From Candidatus Aquicultor sp. (lineage in GTDB: Bacteria; Actinomycetota; Aquicultoria; Aquicultorales; Aquicultoraceae): DNA of 41,502 nt. Below, in pieces: positions 29,438 to 41,496 of this stretch (the stretch's first letter is position 1; every line of letters begins with the position of its first letter). Location of the stretch: NCBI GenBank assembly GCA_030682615.1, contig JAUXNY010000150.1, forward strand, positions 1 through 41,502, in the 5' to 3' direction. The translations under genes and the position numbers were made by a program. The notes beneath the pieces were generated by a model. That model was not told where the DNA came from. It did no database searches and saw only the letters and a program-made list of their open reading frames with translations.

Positions 29438-30376
29438 ATGGAATATTATCACGAACCCGTTTTGCTGGCTGAGGTCCTACAGCACTTACATTGCACTAAT
29501 GGTAGCACAGTCATAGACTGCACTTTGGGCGGGGCAGGACATGCAGAGGCAATACTAGATTTGATCAAGCCGGAAGGCTACTTACTAGGGATCGACGCAG
29601 ATGACGCAGCACTGGACGCAGCAAGGGTTAGACTAGCACGCTTCAGCCAGCAAATATTTTCTTTAGTAAAAGGCAATTTTAGGGATTTAGATCGAATACT
29701 GACCGGCGCAGGCCTCCATGCGGTCGACGGGGTTCTGTTCGATCTCGGAGTCTCCTCCGTACAGTTTGACAGGGCCGAGAGGGGGTTCAGTTATCGGTTT
29801 GACGCTCCGCTCGATATGCGGATGGACCAAACCGCAAGCCTGACCGCCGCAGAAATCGTCAACACGTATGGGGAGGCGGAGCTTTCACGAATCATCAAAG
29901 AGTATGGCGAGGAAAGATGGGCGCATCGAATCGCCTCCTTAATCGTGAAAGCTAGAAGAAAGCGCCCAATCGGTACGACCTTTGAGTTGGTGGACATCAT
30001 CAAAGATGCTATACCGGCTCCCGCTAGGCGCAAGGGAGGACATCCCGCCAAGCGGACCTTTCAGGCTATACGAATCGCTGTCAATGATGAGCTAAGCATT
30101 CTTGAGAATAGTTTTAGGGATGCCGTCAGGTGGTTGAGGCCGCACGGGAGGCTGGTCGTAATTTCGTACCATTCGCTCGAGGACAAAGTCGCCAAGAGCG
30201 TAATCAATGATTTAGCCACGGTGTGTCTTTGTCCACCCGATTTGCCTGTATGTAGTTGCGGTCTCAAGCCGCAGTTGCGTGTTGTGACAAGAAAAGCAAT
30301 AAGGCCGGAACCAAAAGAGCTGGCCGATAACCCACGAGCGGAAAGCGCCCGTCTGCGGGCAGCGGAGAAATTGTAA
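29438..30376 (+). CDS. rsmH: 16S rRNA m4C1402 methyltransferase
   Basis: SAM-dependent methyltransferase RsmH (MraW) acting on the N4 of C1402 in 16S rRNA; 312 residues. Seen: the start YHEPVLLAEVLQHL, SAM motif DCTLGGAGHAEAIL, GVLFDLGVSSVQFD, RGFSYRFDAPLDMRMD, and GRLVVISYHSLEDKVAK, all RsmH signatures. The gene starts 9 nt after mraZ with only a weak AGGGCAC site. Confidence 0.97.
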   Translation: MEYYHEPVLLAEVLQHLHCTNGSTVIDCTLGGAGHAEAILDLIKPEGYLLGIDADDAALDAARVRLARFSQQIFSLVKGNFRDLDRILTGAGLHAVDGVLFDLGVSSVQFDRAERGFSYRFDAPLDMRMDQTASLTAAEIVNTYGEAELSRIIKEYGEERWAHRIASLIVKARRKRPIGTTFELVDIIKDAIPAPARRKGGHPAKRTFQAIRIAVNDELSILENSFRDAVRWLRPHGRLVVISYHSLEDKVAKSVINDLATVCLCPPDLPVCSCGLKPQLRVVTRKAIRPEPKELADNPRAESARLRAAEKL

Positions 30377-33524: not shown

Positions 33525-33546
33525 ATAATGGTTTATGGAGGAGAGC

Positions 33547-35010
33547 GTGCGACTCAAAGACATTATTGCCGAAATCGAAGAGATCAAGGTCGAGGGCGAT
33601 CCCGGTATTGAGATATCGGGCTTGGCCTATGATTCGCGCCAGGTAAAAGGCGGCGAGCTTTTCTTCTGCATTCGCGGATTTAAAACCGACGGCCATGAGT
33701 TTGCCGGGCGTGCGCAAGACGCGGGGGCATCGGCGGTCATGGTAGAAGAGCTTTTGCCCGACCTATCGATAACGCAGGTCGTTGTCGCAGACACGCGCGT
33801 TGGTATGGCGCGGGCGGCGAGCGCTTTCTATGGGCATCCTACTCGCAAGATGAGGCTAGCCGGCGTAACCGGAACTAATGGGAAGACTACGACGACCTAT
33901 ATGATAGATTCGATATTTAGGTCATCGGGATATAAGACGGGCCTCATCGGCACCATCGAGTATCGGATTGGCGACGAAGTCTTTGCCGTTGAGCGAACCA
34001 CACCCGAATCACTCGATATACAGCGGCTCTTCGCGTCTATGGTCGATGCCGGTGTCGAGGCTGTATCGATTGAGGTATCATCTCATGCCATAGACCTTGC
34101 GCGGGTTGAGGCCTGTGATTTCAACGCGGTTGTCTTTACGAACTTGAGCCGGGAGCATCTGGACTATCACGGGACGATGGAGGAGTACTTCAAGGTCAAG
34201 CGCCGTATATTCGAAAGGACGTCCGGTCGGGATGTCGCACACGTCATCAATGTCGACGACCAATACGGACGCCGAATAATCGAAGAGACCGGACCGCCAC
34301 ACATAAGGTTTAGCTGTAAAGATAAAGTAGAGGTTTATGCCACAGGTATAGAAGCCAGAGCCGATGGTTCAACATTCGAGCTGCACGTGCCGGGGGCGCA
34401 GACGAGTGTAGCGCTCAGGTTGCCGGGTTTGTTCAATATACAAAACGCGTTGGCCGCGGCCGGAGTCGCATATTCACAAGGAATCGGGATTAATGTAATT
34501 AAAATCGGACTAGAGACGTTGGCGGCAGTGCCGGGGAGGTTCGAACGTATAGATTGCGGACAGGGTTTTAGTGTCATCGTCGATTATGCGCATACTCCCG
34601 ACAGCCTCGAAAAGGTCCTGACTGCGGCGCGAGAGATCACAACCGGAAGGCTGATAACGGTCTTTGGATGTGGAGGCGATCGCGACCGGGGAAAGCGGCC
34701 GTTAATGGGCAGGATTGGGACGCAATTGAGTGATTACGCAATCTTGACATCGGATAATCCGCGGAGCGAAGAGCCTGGGAAGATTATAGAGGAAATCGCA
34801 GAGGGAGTGCGTGCGCTAAACGGCAACGGCTATCATATCATCGAAGACAGAAGACTGGCTATCAAAGAGGCTATTGCTTGTGCCGGGAGCGGTGACACTG
34901 TGATCATAGCCGGTAAGGGTCATGAGGGCGGCCAGGAGATCAAGGGAGAAAAAATGCCCTTTGATGATAGAGATGTGGCTAGAGGCTACCTAGAGGAATT
35001 GAAGGGATGA
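33547..35010 (+). CDS. murE: UDP-MurNAc-L-Ala-D-Glu:diaminopimelate ligase
   Basis: Cytoplasmic Mur ligase adding the third residue to the peptidoglycan stem peptide; 487 residues from this start. Seen: the Mur P-loop GVTGTNGKTTTTYM, VSSHAIDLARVE, FTNLSREHLDYHGTMEEY, and the C-terminal TSDNPRSEEP. D-N-P-R is the motif associated with meso-diaminopimelate rather than lysine, so the wall is probably A1gamma. The GTG at 33547 is preceded by GGAGGAG; an ATG at 33535 in the same frame would add four residues but overlaps the predicted transcription start. Confidence 0.95.
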   Translation: MRLKDIIAEIEEIKVEGDPGIEISGLAYDSRQVKGGELFFCIRGFKTDGHEFAGRAQDAGASAVMVEELLPDLSITQVVVADTRVGMARAASAFYGHPTRKMRLAGVTGTNGKTTTTYMIDSIFRSSGYKTGLIGTIEYRIGDEVFAVERTTPESLDIQRLFASMVDAGVEAVSIEVSSHAIDLARVEACDFNAVVFTNLSREHLDYHGTMEEYFKVKRRIFERTSGRDVAHVINVDDQYGRRIIEETGPPHIRFSCKDKVEVYATGIEARADGSTFELHVPGAQTSVALRLPGLFNIQNALAAAGVAYSQGIGINVIKIGLETLAAVPGRFERIDCGQGFSVIVDYAHTPDSLEKVLTAAREITTGRLITVFGCGGDRDRGKRPLMGRIGTQLSDYAILTSDNPRSEEPGKIIEEIAEGVRALNGNGYHIIEDRRLAIKEAIACAGSGDTVIIAGKGHEGGQEIKGEKMPFDDRDVARGYLEELKG

Positions 35011-37643: not shown

Positions 37644-39007
37644 TGGATTTGTCGAATAAACGGGTGCTGGTCATAGGGCTTGGGCGCAGCGGAAAAGCCG
37701 CGGCACTTAAGCTGAAAGGCCTGGGAGCGAGCGTTCTGGCGTCGGATGTGTCGACGGCGGATGAGATGTCGGCGCTTGCGCAGGAGTTGCGCGCGGGCGG
37801 CATCGATGTAGAGCTGGGGGCGCAGGATGATAGTTTGCTCACCGGTGTCGATCTCGTCGTCGTCAGCCCCGGCGTGCCGAGTCGTGTCCCGTTGCTGTTG
37901 GCGGCAAGAAATCTCGGTCTGCCGGTTTGGAGCGAGATTGAGCTGGCCTACCGGCTTACGGATAAACCGATAATCGCCATCACGGGAACGAACGGCAAGA
38001 CAACGACGACGACCCTTATAGGAGAGGTTTTCGATGCGGCGGGACATTCAGCCGCAGTCGGGGGCAATATCGGCACACCGCTCGTGTCGATTGCTGACGA
38101 TAGTGGCGTCGAGACACTCATAGTCGAGGTGAGCAGTTTTCAGCTCGATACGATCGTCGATTTCAGACCGAAAATCGCCGTTCTTTTAAATATTACGGAG
38201 GACCACCTCGATTGGCACCCGGATTTTGCCGACTATGCGAGGGCCAAGAGCAGGATATTTTTGAACCAGACGGCGGATGACATCGCCGTCTTAAATCTCG
38301 ACGACCCGCAGGTGAAAGCCCTGGTGCCGGGGATAATAGCGAGAGTCATCGGCACGAGCAAAGATGAGCTTAAGAGCGGTGTCTGTGTCAGCGGAGGGCG
38401 TATGGTGATACGCCTCGATAAGGAAATCGATCTCTGCGGCGTCGGTGAGCTTAAGGTTCGCGGCAGCCACAATATCGACAACGTCATGGCGGTCGCGGCG
38501 GCCTGTTACGCCGCGGGCATTGAAGCGCAGGTCATAGCGAACACCGTGACCGGGTTCTCCGGACTTCAACACCGGGTGGAATTTGTGGAAACGATTAATG
38601 GGGTCTCTTATTATAATGATTCGAAAGCGACCAATGTAGATGCGACGGTCAAGGCGCTGACAGCCTTTACGGAGCCGCTCGTTCTTCTGGCCGGCGGTAG
38701 AAATAAAGGCAATAGTTTTGTCCCGCTGGCCCGGAGTTTGGGTCCGGGCGTCAAAGCCGTGGTTGGTTTTGGCGAAGCGGGTCGCGATATCTTACAGGTG
38801 ATGCCGGGGGATATCCGCCAGGAATATGAGGCAACGGTCGAGGACGCGGTGGTGCGTGCCGCAGCCCTTTCGCAGCCGGGCGACGTGGTGCTGTTATCCC
38901 CGGCATGTGCGAGTTTCGACGCATTCAATGGTTATACTCAAAGAGGGGACGCCTTTAAGAAAGCCGTTATGGGCCTTGGGGTAAGCGATGGCGAGAGCAA
39001 GAACTAA
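37643..39007 (+). CDS. murD: UDP-MurNAc-L-Ala:D-Glu ligase
   Basis: Mur ligase adding D-glutamate; 454 residues. Seen: the N-terminal Rossmann start KRVLVIGLGRSGKAAALKL, the P-loop AITGTNGKTTTTTLI, VEVSSFQLDTI, LNITEDHLDWH, and NDSKATNVDATVKAL, typical of MurD. The ATG at 37643 overlaps the mraY stop (TAATG); the frame extends to 37571 inside mraY but that stretch is not MurD-like. The end overlaps ftsW by 20 nt. Confidence 0.96.
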   Translation: MDLSNKRVLVIGLGRSGKAAALKLKGLGASVLASDVSTADEMSALAQELRAGGIDVELGAQDDSLLTGVDLVVVSPGVPSRVPLLLAARNLGLPVWSEIELAYRLTDKPIIAITGTNGKTTTTTLIGEVFDAAGHSAAVGGNIGTPLVSIADDSGVETLIVEVSSFQLDTIVDFRPKIAVLLNITEDHLDWHPDFADYARAKSRIFLNQTADDIAVLNLDDPQVKALVPGIIARVIGTSKDELKSGVCVSGGRMVIRLDKEIDLCGVGELKVRGSHNIDNVMAVAAACYAAGIEAQVIANTVTGFSGLQHRVEFVETINGVSYYNDSKATNVDATVKALTAFTEPLVLLAGGRNKGNSFVPLARSLGPGVKAVVGFGEAGRDILQVMPGDIRQEYEATVEDAVVRAAALSQPGDVVLLSPACASFDAFNGYTQRGDAFKKAVMGLGVSDGESKN

Positions 39008-40457
39008 AGACAGACATGATTATTATAGGTTGCTCGGGCTAGTCTTCATCATGATTTTGTTCGGGCTGATCATGGTGTTGTCGGCGAGCTCTATTCGCGC
39101 ATTTGCGAGCACCGGTGACAGCTATTACTATATCAAGAAGCAGTCGCTGGCAGCATTGATAGGTTTTGTGGCGCTTATGATCGCGTCTCGCATCCCGTTG
39201 CGCACCATACAGGGTCTCGCGCGTCCCGCGGTCGGCCTGTCATTGATAATGCTGGTAGCCGTACTCATTCCCGGCGTCGGCAAGAGCGCCGGTGGTGCGA
39301 CAAGCTGGTTTTCGTTTGGCGGGTTTCAAATACAGCCGTCAGAGATAGCTAAACTTGCGGTCATCATATTCACCGCGGACGTCTTTACCCGCTACCGCAA
39401 AGACCTTGATGACCTCAAAGAGCTGTTCTATTCATATGCGGTAGTAATTATATTGGTAGTGACCCTAATTATGCTCCAGCCCGATATGGGGACGACCATC
39501 ACTATCTGCCTGGCTGTCCTCGCTACCGTCTTTGTCGCGGGTTTCGACCTGAAGTACCTCTTCTTGCTGGCGACGACGGGAGGAATCGGTGCGACCTATC
39601 TTATATACTCCGCATCCTATCGTCTCAAGCGCATTTCAGCCTTTCTAAACCCATCGGCCGACCCATTGGGAGCCGGTTATCAGATAAGGCAGTCGTTGCT
39701 GGCATTTGGGTCCGGCGGGCTTTTCGGCGTGGGTTTAGGGATGAGCAGGCAAAAGTACTTCTACCTTCCAGCGGCGCACACCGATTTTATCTTCGCGATA
39801 ATCGGCGAGGAGCTCGGGCTGCTCGGAACGCTGGCAACGATTATTCTGTTCGCCTCGTTTGCCTATTATGGCGTGCGGATATCGCTCAAATGCAACAGCC
39901 ACTTCGGGCGCCTGTTGGGCACTGGTGTTACTTCTATGATAGTGCTGCAAGCCTTGGTAAACATGGGAACGGTAACGCAGATCCTGCCCATAACCGGCAT
40001 ACCGATGCCGTTTATAAGCTATGGCGGCTCTTCGCTCATGGTCAACCTTGCGGCAGTCGGCCTACTCTTAAGCATCGCCGTCGAAAACGAACGTGAGTCG
40101 AAATCGCGGCGTCGGAAGTCAAGGCTGAGCTTATTCGACGGCTCCCAGGAGGATTTGGCTGAACGCAAGACCACGTCACGCTCGAGAAAGACGAAGAAGA
40201 GCGCCTCGCGGAAGAAGCCTGTCGCGGCATCCTCGAATGTGGTATCAATGAAGGACTCGAAGAGCGCCACCTCTGCCAAAGCTACGAGTAAAAAGCGCAA
40301 AGCCGGCGCAAAGAAGCGTTCAAGCAGTAGCGCAACTAATGCGACAGGGAGAACCAAAACGAATGCGAGTGATAATAAGCGGCGGCGGAACAGCGGGACA
40401 CGTGTATCCGGGTCTGGCACTAGCCGCAGCACTACAAAGAGCAAAAAAAGACCTTGA
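38988..40457 (+). CDS. ftsW: FtsW peptidoglycan polymerase with long basic tail
   Basis: SEDS-family glycosyltransferase polymerising lipid II at the septum together with FtsI; 489 residues. Ten membrane segments fill residues about 14-366. Seen: PSEIAK (117-122), QPDMGT (164-169), the catalytic-region Asp266 in AHTDFIFAIIGEELG, and PFISYGGSS (341-349). After residue 370 comes a 119-residue cytoplasmic tail almost entirely of Lys, Arg, Ser, Thr and Ala (for example SRSRKTKKSASRKK and SKKRKAGAKKRSSSS). The last 31 residues are encoded in DNA that also encodes the start of murG. FtsW proteins usually end soon after the last membrane segment; some actinobacterial ones have longer tails. Confidence 0.95.
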   Translation: MARARTKDRHDYYRLLGLVFIMILFGLIMVLSASSIRAFASTGDSYYYIKKQSLAALIGFVALMIASRIPLRTIQGLARPAVGLSLIMLVAVLIPGVGKSAGGATSWFSFGGFQIQPSEIAKLAVIIFTADVFTRYRKDLDDLKELFYSYAVVIILVVTLIMLQPDMGTTITICLAVLATVFVAGFDLKYLFLLATTGGIGATYLIYSASYRLKRISAFLNPSADPLGAGYQIRQSLLAFGSGGLFGVGLGMSRQKYFYLPAAHTDFIFAIIGEELGLLGTLATIILFASFAYYGVRISLKCNSHFGRLLGTGVTSMIVLQALVNMGTVTQILPITGIPMPFISYGGSSLMVNLAAVGLLLSIAVENERESKSRRRKSRLSLFDGSQEDLAERKTTSRSRKTKKSASRKKPVAASSNVVSMKDSKSATSAKATSKKRKAGAKKRSSSSATNATGRTKTNASDNKRRRNSGTRVSGSGTSRSTTKSKKRP

Positions 40458-41496
40458 AATATTGTTCGTAGGCACCAGCGCGGGTTTAGAGGCGACTTTG
40501 GTGCCGCAAGCCGGCTATAACTTCAAGGCCATCGAGGCAAAAGGCTTGCCCCGAAAACCTTCGTTCAAGGCGTTCGGCACCTTTCTTTCGGCCGGCAAGG
40601 GAACGATAGAAGCCGCGAATCTTCTGCGGCACTTCAAGCCCGATATCGTCGTCGGAATGGGCGCGTATGTTAGCCTGCCGGTCGTTGGCGCAGCGGTATT
40701 GCTCCATATCCCAACGGTCGTCCATGAGCAAAACGCGCTGCCCGGGCTTGTAAACCGGGTTCTTGGGCGGGTGGCGAGCGCCGTGGCGGTCTCCTATCCG
40801 GATATGGAGGAGTATTTTTCTCGCGGCAAGCGTGTCGAAGTCACCGGCAATCCGATTCGCCGGGAAATATTAGACGCTCACCGCGAGACCGCAATAAAAG
40901 CCTTTGGGCTCGATGAAAAACGCAAGACCCTGTTGGTTTTTGGCGGCAGCAGGGGGGCGCAGAAGATAAACGAAGCGGTTGTTGAGGCGTATGATACGTG
41001 GCGTCATAACGACAGCTTGCAGATAGTCCATGCTACGGGTAAGATAAACTATGAACTGGTAAAGAGAGCGATTGAAGATATACAAAGAGGGGACGATAGC
41101 CTTCGTTACGAAGCTCTCCCGTATATCGATGACATGAGTATCGCTTACGCCGGTTCCGATCTTTTAGTCTGCCGGTCGGGAGCGACAACGATTGCCGAGA
41201 TAACAGCGAAAGGTTTGCCGGCGATCCTTATCCCGTATCCATACGCGACCGACAACCACCAGGAAAAAAATGCGCGAAGCCTCAAAGATACAGGCGCGGC
41301 CGAGGTCATATTGGATAGGGAACTGTCGGGCGACGCATTACGTGAAATGGTCGACTCTCTCATATCGGATGAAGAGCGCTTGCGCGCCATGAGAGAAGCG
41401 TCGCTCACGTTCGGAAAGCCGGACGCGGATGAAAATCTAGCAGCTCTCGTCTTCGAAATAAGTGAGACGAACTCGACGGTGAAGGTCGCAGACTAG
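40363..41496 (+). CDS. murG: lipid II synthase MurG
   Basis: Membrane-associated glycosyltransferase adding GlcNAc to lipid I; 377 residues, complete to its TAG at 41494. Seen: the GGGTAGHVYPGLALA loop (7-21), VGMGAYVSLPVVGAA, HEQNALPGLVNR, FGGSRGAQKINEAV and the UDP-GlcNAc site CRSGATTIAEI, then PYPYATDNHQEKNA. I chose the ATG at 40363; CAGGGAG lies 11 nt upstream, and an ATG at 40339 would add eight residues. The first 95 nt overlap the ftsW tail in a different frame. ftsQ or murC would be expected next, beyond the window. Confidence 0.96.
   Translation: MRVIISGGGTAGHVYPGLALAAALQRAKKDLEILFVGTSAGLEATLVPQAGYNFKAIEAKGLPRKPSFKAFGTFLSAGKGTIEAANLLRHFKPDIVVGMGAYVSLPVVGAAVLLHIPTVVHEQNALPGLVNRVLGRVASAVAVSYPDMEEYFSRGKRVEVTGNPIRREILDAHRETAIKAFGLDEKRKTLLVFGGSRGAQKINEAVVEAYDTWRHNDSLQIVHATGKINYELVKRAIEDIQRGDDSLRYEALPYIDDMSIAYAGSDLLVCRSGATTIAEITAKGLPAILIPYPYATDNHQEKNARSLKDTGAAEVILDRELSGDALREMVDSLISDEERLRAMREASLTFGKPDADENLAALVFEISETNSTVKVAD

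Follow-up and report, generated by a model that had tools for sequence, protein, structure and literature searches.

A long basic FtsW tail that ends inside murG, probably as dual-coding sequence, in the Aquicultor family

The ftsW-murG locus

The window, that is, the whole stretch of 41,502 nt from Candidatus Aquicultor sp. that was analyzed, carries near its end murF, mraY, murD, ftsW and murG, in this order, as part of a division and cell-wall cluster. The features considered here are the following.

38988-40457, plus strand: ftsW, 489 aa; SEDS core (residues 1-367) followed by a basic tail
40089-40362, plus strand: FtsW tail 5′ of the overlap, approximately residues 368-458; low-complexity K/R/S/T/A sequence, predicted to be disordered
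40346-40352, plus strand: Shine-Dalgarno-like AGGGAGA of murG, within the FtsW tail and 10 nt 5′ of the ATG
40363-41496, plus strand: murG, 377 aa; TIGR01133 match over residues 1-362; PF03033 and PF04101
40363-40457, plus strand: overlap of 95 nt, most likely dual-coding; last ~30 residues and stop of FtsW, codons 1-31 of MurG
40381-40401, plus strand: MurG GGGTAGH loop, codons 7-13, where a stop is not encodable in the FtsW phase

The open frame at 38988-40457 encodes an FtsW with a normal SEDS core, which scores 398.3 bits against TIGR02614 (equivalog cut-off 337.5; model positions 2-356/357, residues 13-366) and 372 bits against PF01098. FtsW chains in the PDB align to residues 14-368, and the core ends at residue ~367. 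The full core and the murD-ftsW-murG order are those of a typical FtsW, but the Aquicultor protein adds a basic tail of 122 residues, with 39 K/R and 8 D/E; the sequence-only reading had recognized this tail and put it slightly short, at ~119 residues. In an AlphaFold2 model built from 11 sequences, in which the core itself is moderately confident, residues 378-488 have pLDDT below 50 and lack secondary structure, and the tail is accordingly predicted to be intrinsically disordered. A search for tandem repeats in the tail found none, which rules out an origin as a tandem-repeat expansion. From the known topology of FtsW, the tail would lie on the cytoplasmic side.

MurG scores 323 bits against TIGR01133 (cut-off 250) and has the N-terminal GGGTAGH loop of its family. 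Its ATG lies at 40363, and the two genes share 95 nt, the FtsW stop included. Within the overlap, each FtsW codon begins with base three of a MurG codon and ends with bases one and two of the following MurG codon, and the FtsW frame across the glycine loop reads KRRRNSGT (40377-40400). Both the shared 95 nt and this reading of the loop had been claimed beforehand, and both are correct. Because the conserved glycine loop itself sits inside the FtsW frame, the overlap is independent of the choice of murG start, and a wrongly assigned start is ruled out. Translation of murG probably uses the Shine-Dalgarno-like site that lies within ftsW.

Distribution and origin of the overlap

The basic tail was found in the same frame in all 11 genomes of the Aquicultor family, with a length of 74-122 residues, and the overlap measures 95 nt in ten of them and 89 nt in the other. 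FtsW identity falls to about 50-60% within the family, yet the frame, the tail and the overlap are all kept. This identical frame in 11/11 genomes rules out an assembly, sequencing or frameshift error, and each genome shows a true long same-strand pair, with ortholog-like ends and no start, frameshift or stop artefact. FtsW paralogues of the same genomes stop 2-5 residues past the core. The comparison of C-termini across relatives that the sequence-only reading had proposed thus bore out both the tail and the overlap within the family. The counter-case that it had named, an FtsW ending soon after residue 370, does occur in another family of the same class (f13), where the protein stops 8-12 residues past the core and no overlap reaches 60 nt, but never within the Aquicultor family.

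The overlap is found far beyond this genome. Of the 21 other genomes of the class, 14 have an overlap of at least 60 nt, and in an evenly drawn phylum sample 17/74 genomes had long overlaps and 24/74 short ones (mostly 4 nt). Three further named records (two actinobacterial, one from Chloroflexi) have overlaps of 77-89 nt. The recurring overlaps over class and phylum span 65-158 nt; those of distant lineages were measured from the position aligned to Aquicultor MurG residue 1 and are lower bounds wherever the true murG start lies upstream. The longest one seen is an apparent 158-nt ftsW-murG overlap in a single class member (G019). The long basic tail is distributed differently: it is present in 11/11 genomes of the family and in 0/21 of the rest of the class, and tails of at least 70 residues occur in 12/77 of the phylum sample. 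Among the genomes compared, the long tail is specific to the Aquicultor family within its class, and the overlap is commoner across lineages than the tail.

All 45 long overlaps lie in a single phase. A stop in the FtsW phase requires a MurG codon of the form xxT followed by a codon starting with AA, AG or GA, and the MurG loop and its flanks provide none until about codon 22-32. The restriction to one phase therefore follows from the MurG glycine loop, which cannot encode a stop there. Of 64 genomes that lack a long overlap, 56 have no stop in this phase within murG codons 1-22, and loss of the ftsW stop in the phase therefore usually extends FtsW ~65-95 nt into murG. We propose that an ancestor lost its ftsW stop codon in this phase, and that FtsW was then extended to the next possible stop, ~65-95 nt inside murG. 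In the Aquicultor family, low-complexity sequence would then have grown in-frame between the last membrane helix and the read-through end, giving a tail of 74-122 residues with a net charge around +30. Selection in this family, which the comparison supports, maintains the basic character of the tail as well as its open frame, also within murG.

Long phase-1 overlaps are in excess in bacterial genomes, and models without selection have been offered for this excess (Sabath et al. 2008, PMC2542354; Fonseca et al. 2013, PMC3887535). These models fit the proposed read-through origin. As these models and that of Palleja et al. allow, the ftsW-murG overlap involves a lengthening of the upstream gene at its 3′ end, into the gene that follows. 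In the survey of Palleja et al. 2008, no co-directional overlap above 60 bp was accepted among 338 genomes, the longest real one was holD-rimI with 56 bp, and same-strand bacterial overlaps above 60 nt were mostly ascribed to annotation errors (PMC2478687). In contrast, the overlap described here is 95 nt long, family-wide and carries signs of constraint in both frames. We found no report of an ftsW-murG overlap in the openly licensed literature.

Selection on the tail and inside the overlap

The part of the tail 5′ of the overlap evolves as protein. Across the four genomes of the genus, its pN/pS was 0.35 in the FtsW frame, whereas the two shifted frames gave 1.08 and 1.77; the FtsW core had 0.11. 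This pattern suggests that the tail is translated.

Inside the overlap, murG codons 2-31 vary less at synonymous sites than expected. The synonymous-rate analysis recommended in the sequence-only reading gave 0.65 of the expected variation, with 0 of 20,000 column permutations as low, and 0.59 when the expectation was pooled from eight genes. In the class and phylum controls, murG starts without a long overlap gave 1.00-1.02. Against the pooled expectation, the starts of ftsI, murF, mraY, murD and ftsW gave 0.96-1.06; the exceptions were murE (0.77) and rsmH (0.37). A general gene-start effect is ruled out by the non-overlapping murG starts and by five of the seven other gene starts. The kind of change that is missing was also informative. 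Changes silent in both frames were nearly as common in the overlap as elsewhere (0.64 versus 0.71, over few dual-silent sites, 37 weighted sites). Changes silent in murG but altering FtsW fell to 0.42 versus 0.75 elsewhere; the largest drop, to 0.15 versus 0.79, was in murG-silent changes that introduce a stop into FtsW. Among windows along murG, the overlap ranks in the bottom 1% for both FtsW ratios (SN/SS and NN/NS).

The charge of the overlap peptide was compared with a recoding null. Random synonymous recoding of MurG, using the codon usage of each genome, already yields a basic peptide (net charge about +3 to +4), which agrees with the earlier suggestion that MurG conservation forces part of the tail. 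The actual peptides carry +8 to +12, an excess of z 1.8-3.6 found in all 11 genomes. Where MurG itself varies, at positions 27-29 (Ala/Ile/Thr, Lys/Arg and Lys/Asp/Asn/Glu/Ser), the FtsW residues read there are K or R in every genome whose FtsW has not yet stopped. Judged by this comparison, the basicity of the overlap peptide is partly forced by MurG and partly selected. The 11 genomes are few and related, and the permutation p-value and z-scores overstate independence and should be taken as indicative.

Codon constraint of this kind might also come from translation-initiation or other RNA- or DNA-level signals of murG, with no selection on an FtsW peptide. The murG start does lie here with a Shine-Dalgarno-like site just 5′ of it, and other stretches of the cluster, namely the 5′ part of rsmH and murG codons 200-250, are low in synonymous variation without an overlapping frame, which suggests RNA- or DNA-level elements in the cluster. 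Codon constraint is therefore no proof of dual coding by itself. However, folding of the overlap is ordinary (z about -0.7 to -0.8) and there is no Rfam match, which rules out RNA structure as the source of the constraint; murG starts without an overlap are free of it, changes that are silent in both frames occur at an almost normal rate, and FtsW keeps K or R where the MurG residue varies. We consider such signals a very unlikely explanation.

It is somewhat less improbable, although still unlikely, that the end of the tail in murG arose neutrally, from a lost stop and from MurG composition, and is tolerated and unselected. The open phase in most non-overlapping genomes, the basic peptide that arises from random recoding, and the uniform phase of the long overlaps, which end where MurG permits, are all expected of such passive read-through. 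In the other lineages with an overlap, moreover, the charge z of 0.85 hardly exceeds the 0.63 of non-overlapping controls, and synonymous variation is 0.90 of expected; the overlap there is compatible with neutrality, and passive read-through may well be the right reading for those lineages. Within the Aquicultor family, it is opposed by the synonymous constraint, by the suppression of FtsW-altering and stop-creating changes, by the charge excess in every genome and by the same stop in 10 of 11 genomes. Purifying selection was found on both frames, in a set of 11 related genomes with few dual-silent sites, and in the Aquicultor family the shared DNA most likely codes for two proteins that are both under selection there.

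Three further stretches of the cluster were low in synonymous variation. The 5′ coding part of rsmH (mraW; 29459-29668) shows 0.19-0.37 of the expected variation in eight family genomes. It contains a ~15-nt inverted repeat, TTTGCTGGCTGAAG ... CTTCAGCCAGCAAA, with arms near 29460 and 29640, and has an RNAalifold z of -3.5 relative to column shuffles. We found neither an overlapping ORF common to all eight family genomes nor an Rfam match, and this segment is a candidate structured RNA embedded in the gene. Inside murG, synonymous variation drops to 0.40 at a promoter-like TTGCAG-N17-TAAGAT (41017-41045), which is present in 11/11 family genomes (TAATAT in two) and is possibly an internal promoter for downstream genes. 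At the start of murE (33535-33627), variation in codons 2-31 is somewhat low, at the 0.77 given above.

A possible divisome tether

Overall, we regard it as probable that the Aquicultor family has a real, translated, disordered and strongly basic cytoplasmic FtsW tail, the last 30 residues of which are dual-coded with murG; its role as a tether is our proposal. The tail would act as an electrostatic tether on the cytoplasmic face, with anionic membrane lipids and/or the acidic C-terminal segment of FtsZ (FDTEDLDIPTFLRKK) as its most likely partner, and would help to retain FtsW, which polymerizes septal peptidoglycan, at the Z-ring. Across the family, FtsZ has an acidic end, FDTEDLDIPTFLRKK or close variants. 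SepF is present, and a search for FtsA gave weak matches of 47-49 bits. We saw no covariation between FtsZ and the FtsW tail: the FtsZ end is likewise acidic in f13, whose FtsW has no tail.

In mycobacteria, a basic FtsW tail is reportedly the partner of the FtsZ C-terminus. The Aquicultor tail is of this long basic type, with its 39 K/R of 122 residues and its predicted disorder, but it is K/S-rich and dual-coded with murG, and FtsZ binding is putative here. An actinobacterial precedent for contact with the FtsZ C-terminus is provided by mycobacterial FtsW (Datta 2002 and Rajagopalan 2005, as cited in PMC2897852), and FtsZ residues D374-376 are needed in M. tuberculosis, where FtsZ D374-76A is defective in FtsW interaction (PMC2897852). 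FtsW has also been proposed as a substitute for FtsA/ZipA (PMC9939409). Given the M. tuberculosis precedent and the acidic FtsZ end, our best guess is an electrostatic tether that binds the membrane, FtsZ or both.

The sequence-only reading had likened the tail to histone H1 and HU tails, and a tail of this sort might bind nucleic acid and connect the divisome with either the nucleoid or the tail's own mRNA. The K/R/S/T/A composition and the low share of hydrophobic residues before the overlap (5-18%) would suit such binding. However, a Pfam scan of the tail gave no relevant match, so the suggested kinship found no backing, and strong DNA binding by a septal FtsW would presumably clash with a DNA-free septum. 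We hold nucleic-acid binding to be the least probable of the alternatives.

The electrostatic tether can be placed in a broader and more tentative scenario, which we think rather doubtful as a whole. The overlap would be recurrent and possibly old in several actinobacterial lineages, one family would have adopted the forced basic peptide and extended it into a divisome tether, and the arrangement may favour MurG synthesis by ribosomes that nascent FtsW keeps at the membrane. If true, this would place lipid II synthesis beside its consumer.

The overlap of the essential genes ftsW and murG clearly runs counter to the view that such overlaps are largely annotation errors. Its phase and length have a simple cause in the stop-free stretch set by the MurG glycine loop, and it offers a natural case for the study of how protein tails are gained by read-through. 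The signs of selection are evidence that one lineage has put a forced basic peptide to use, and they make a divisome tether in uncultured actinobacteria a testable proposal.
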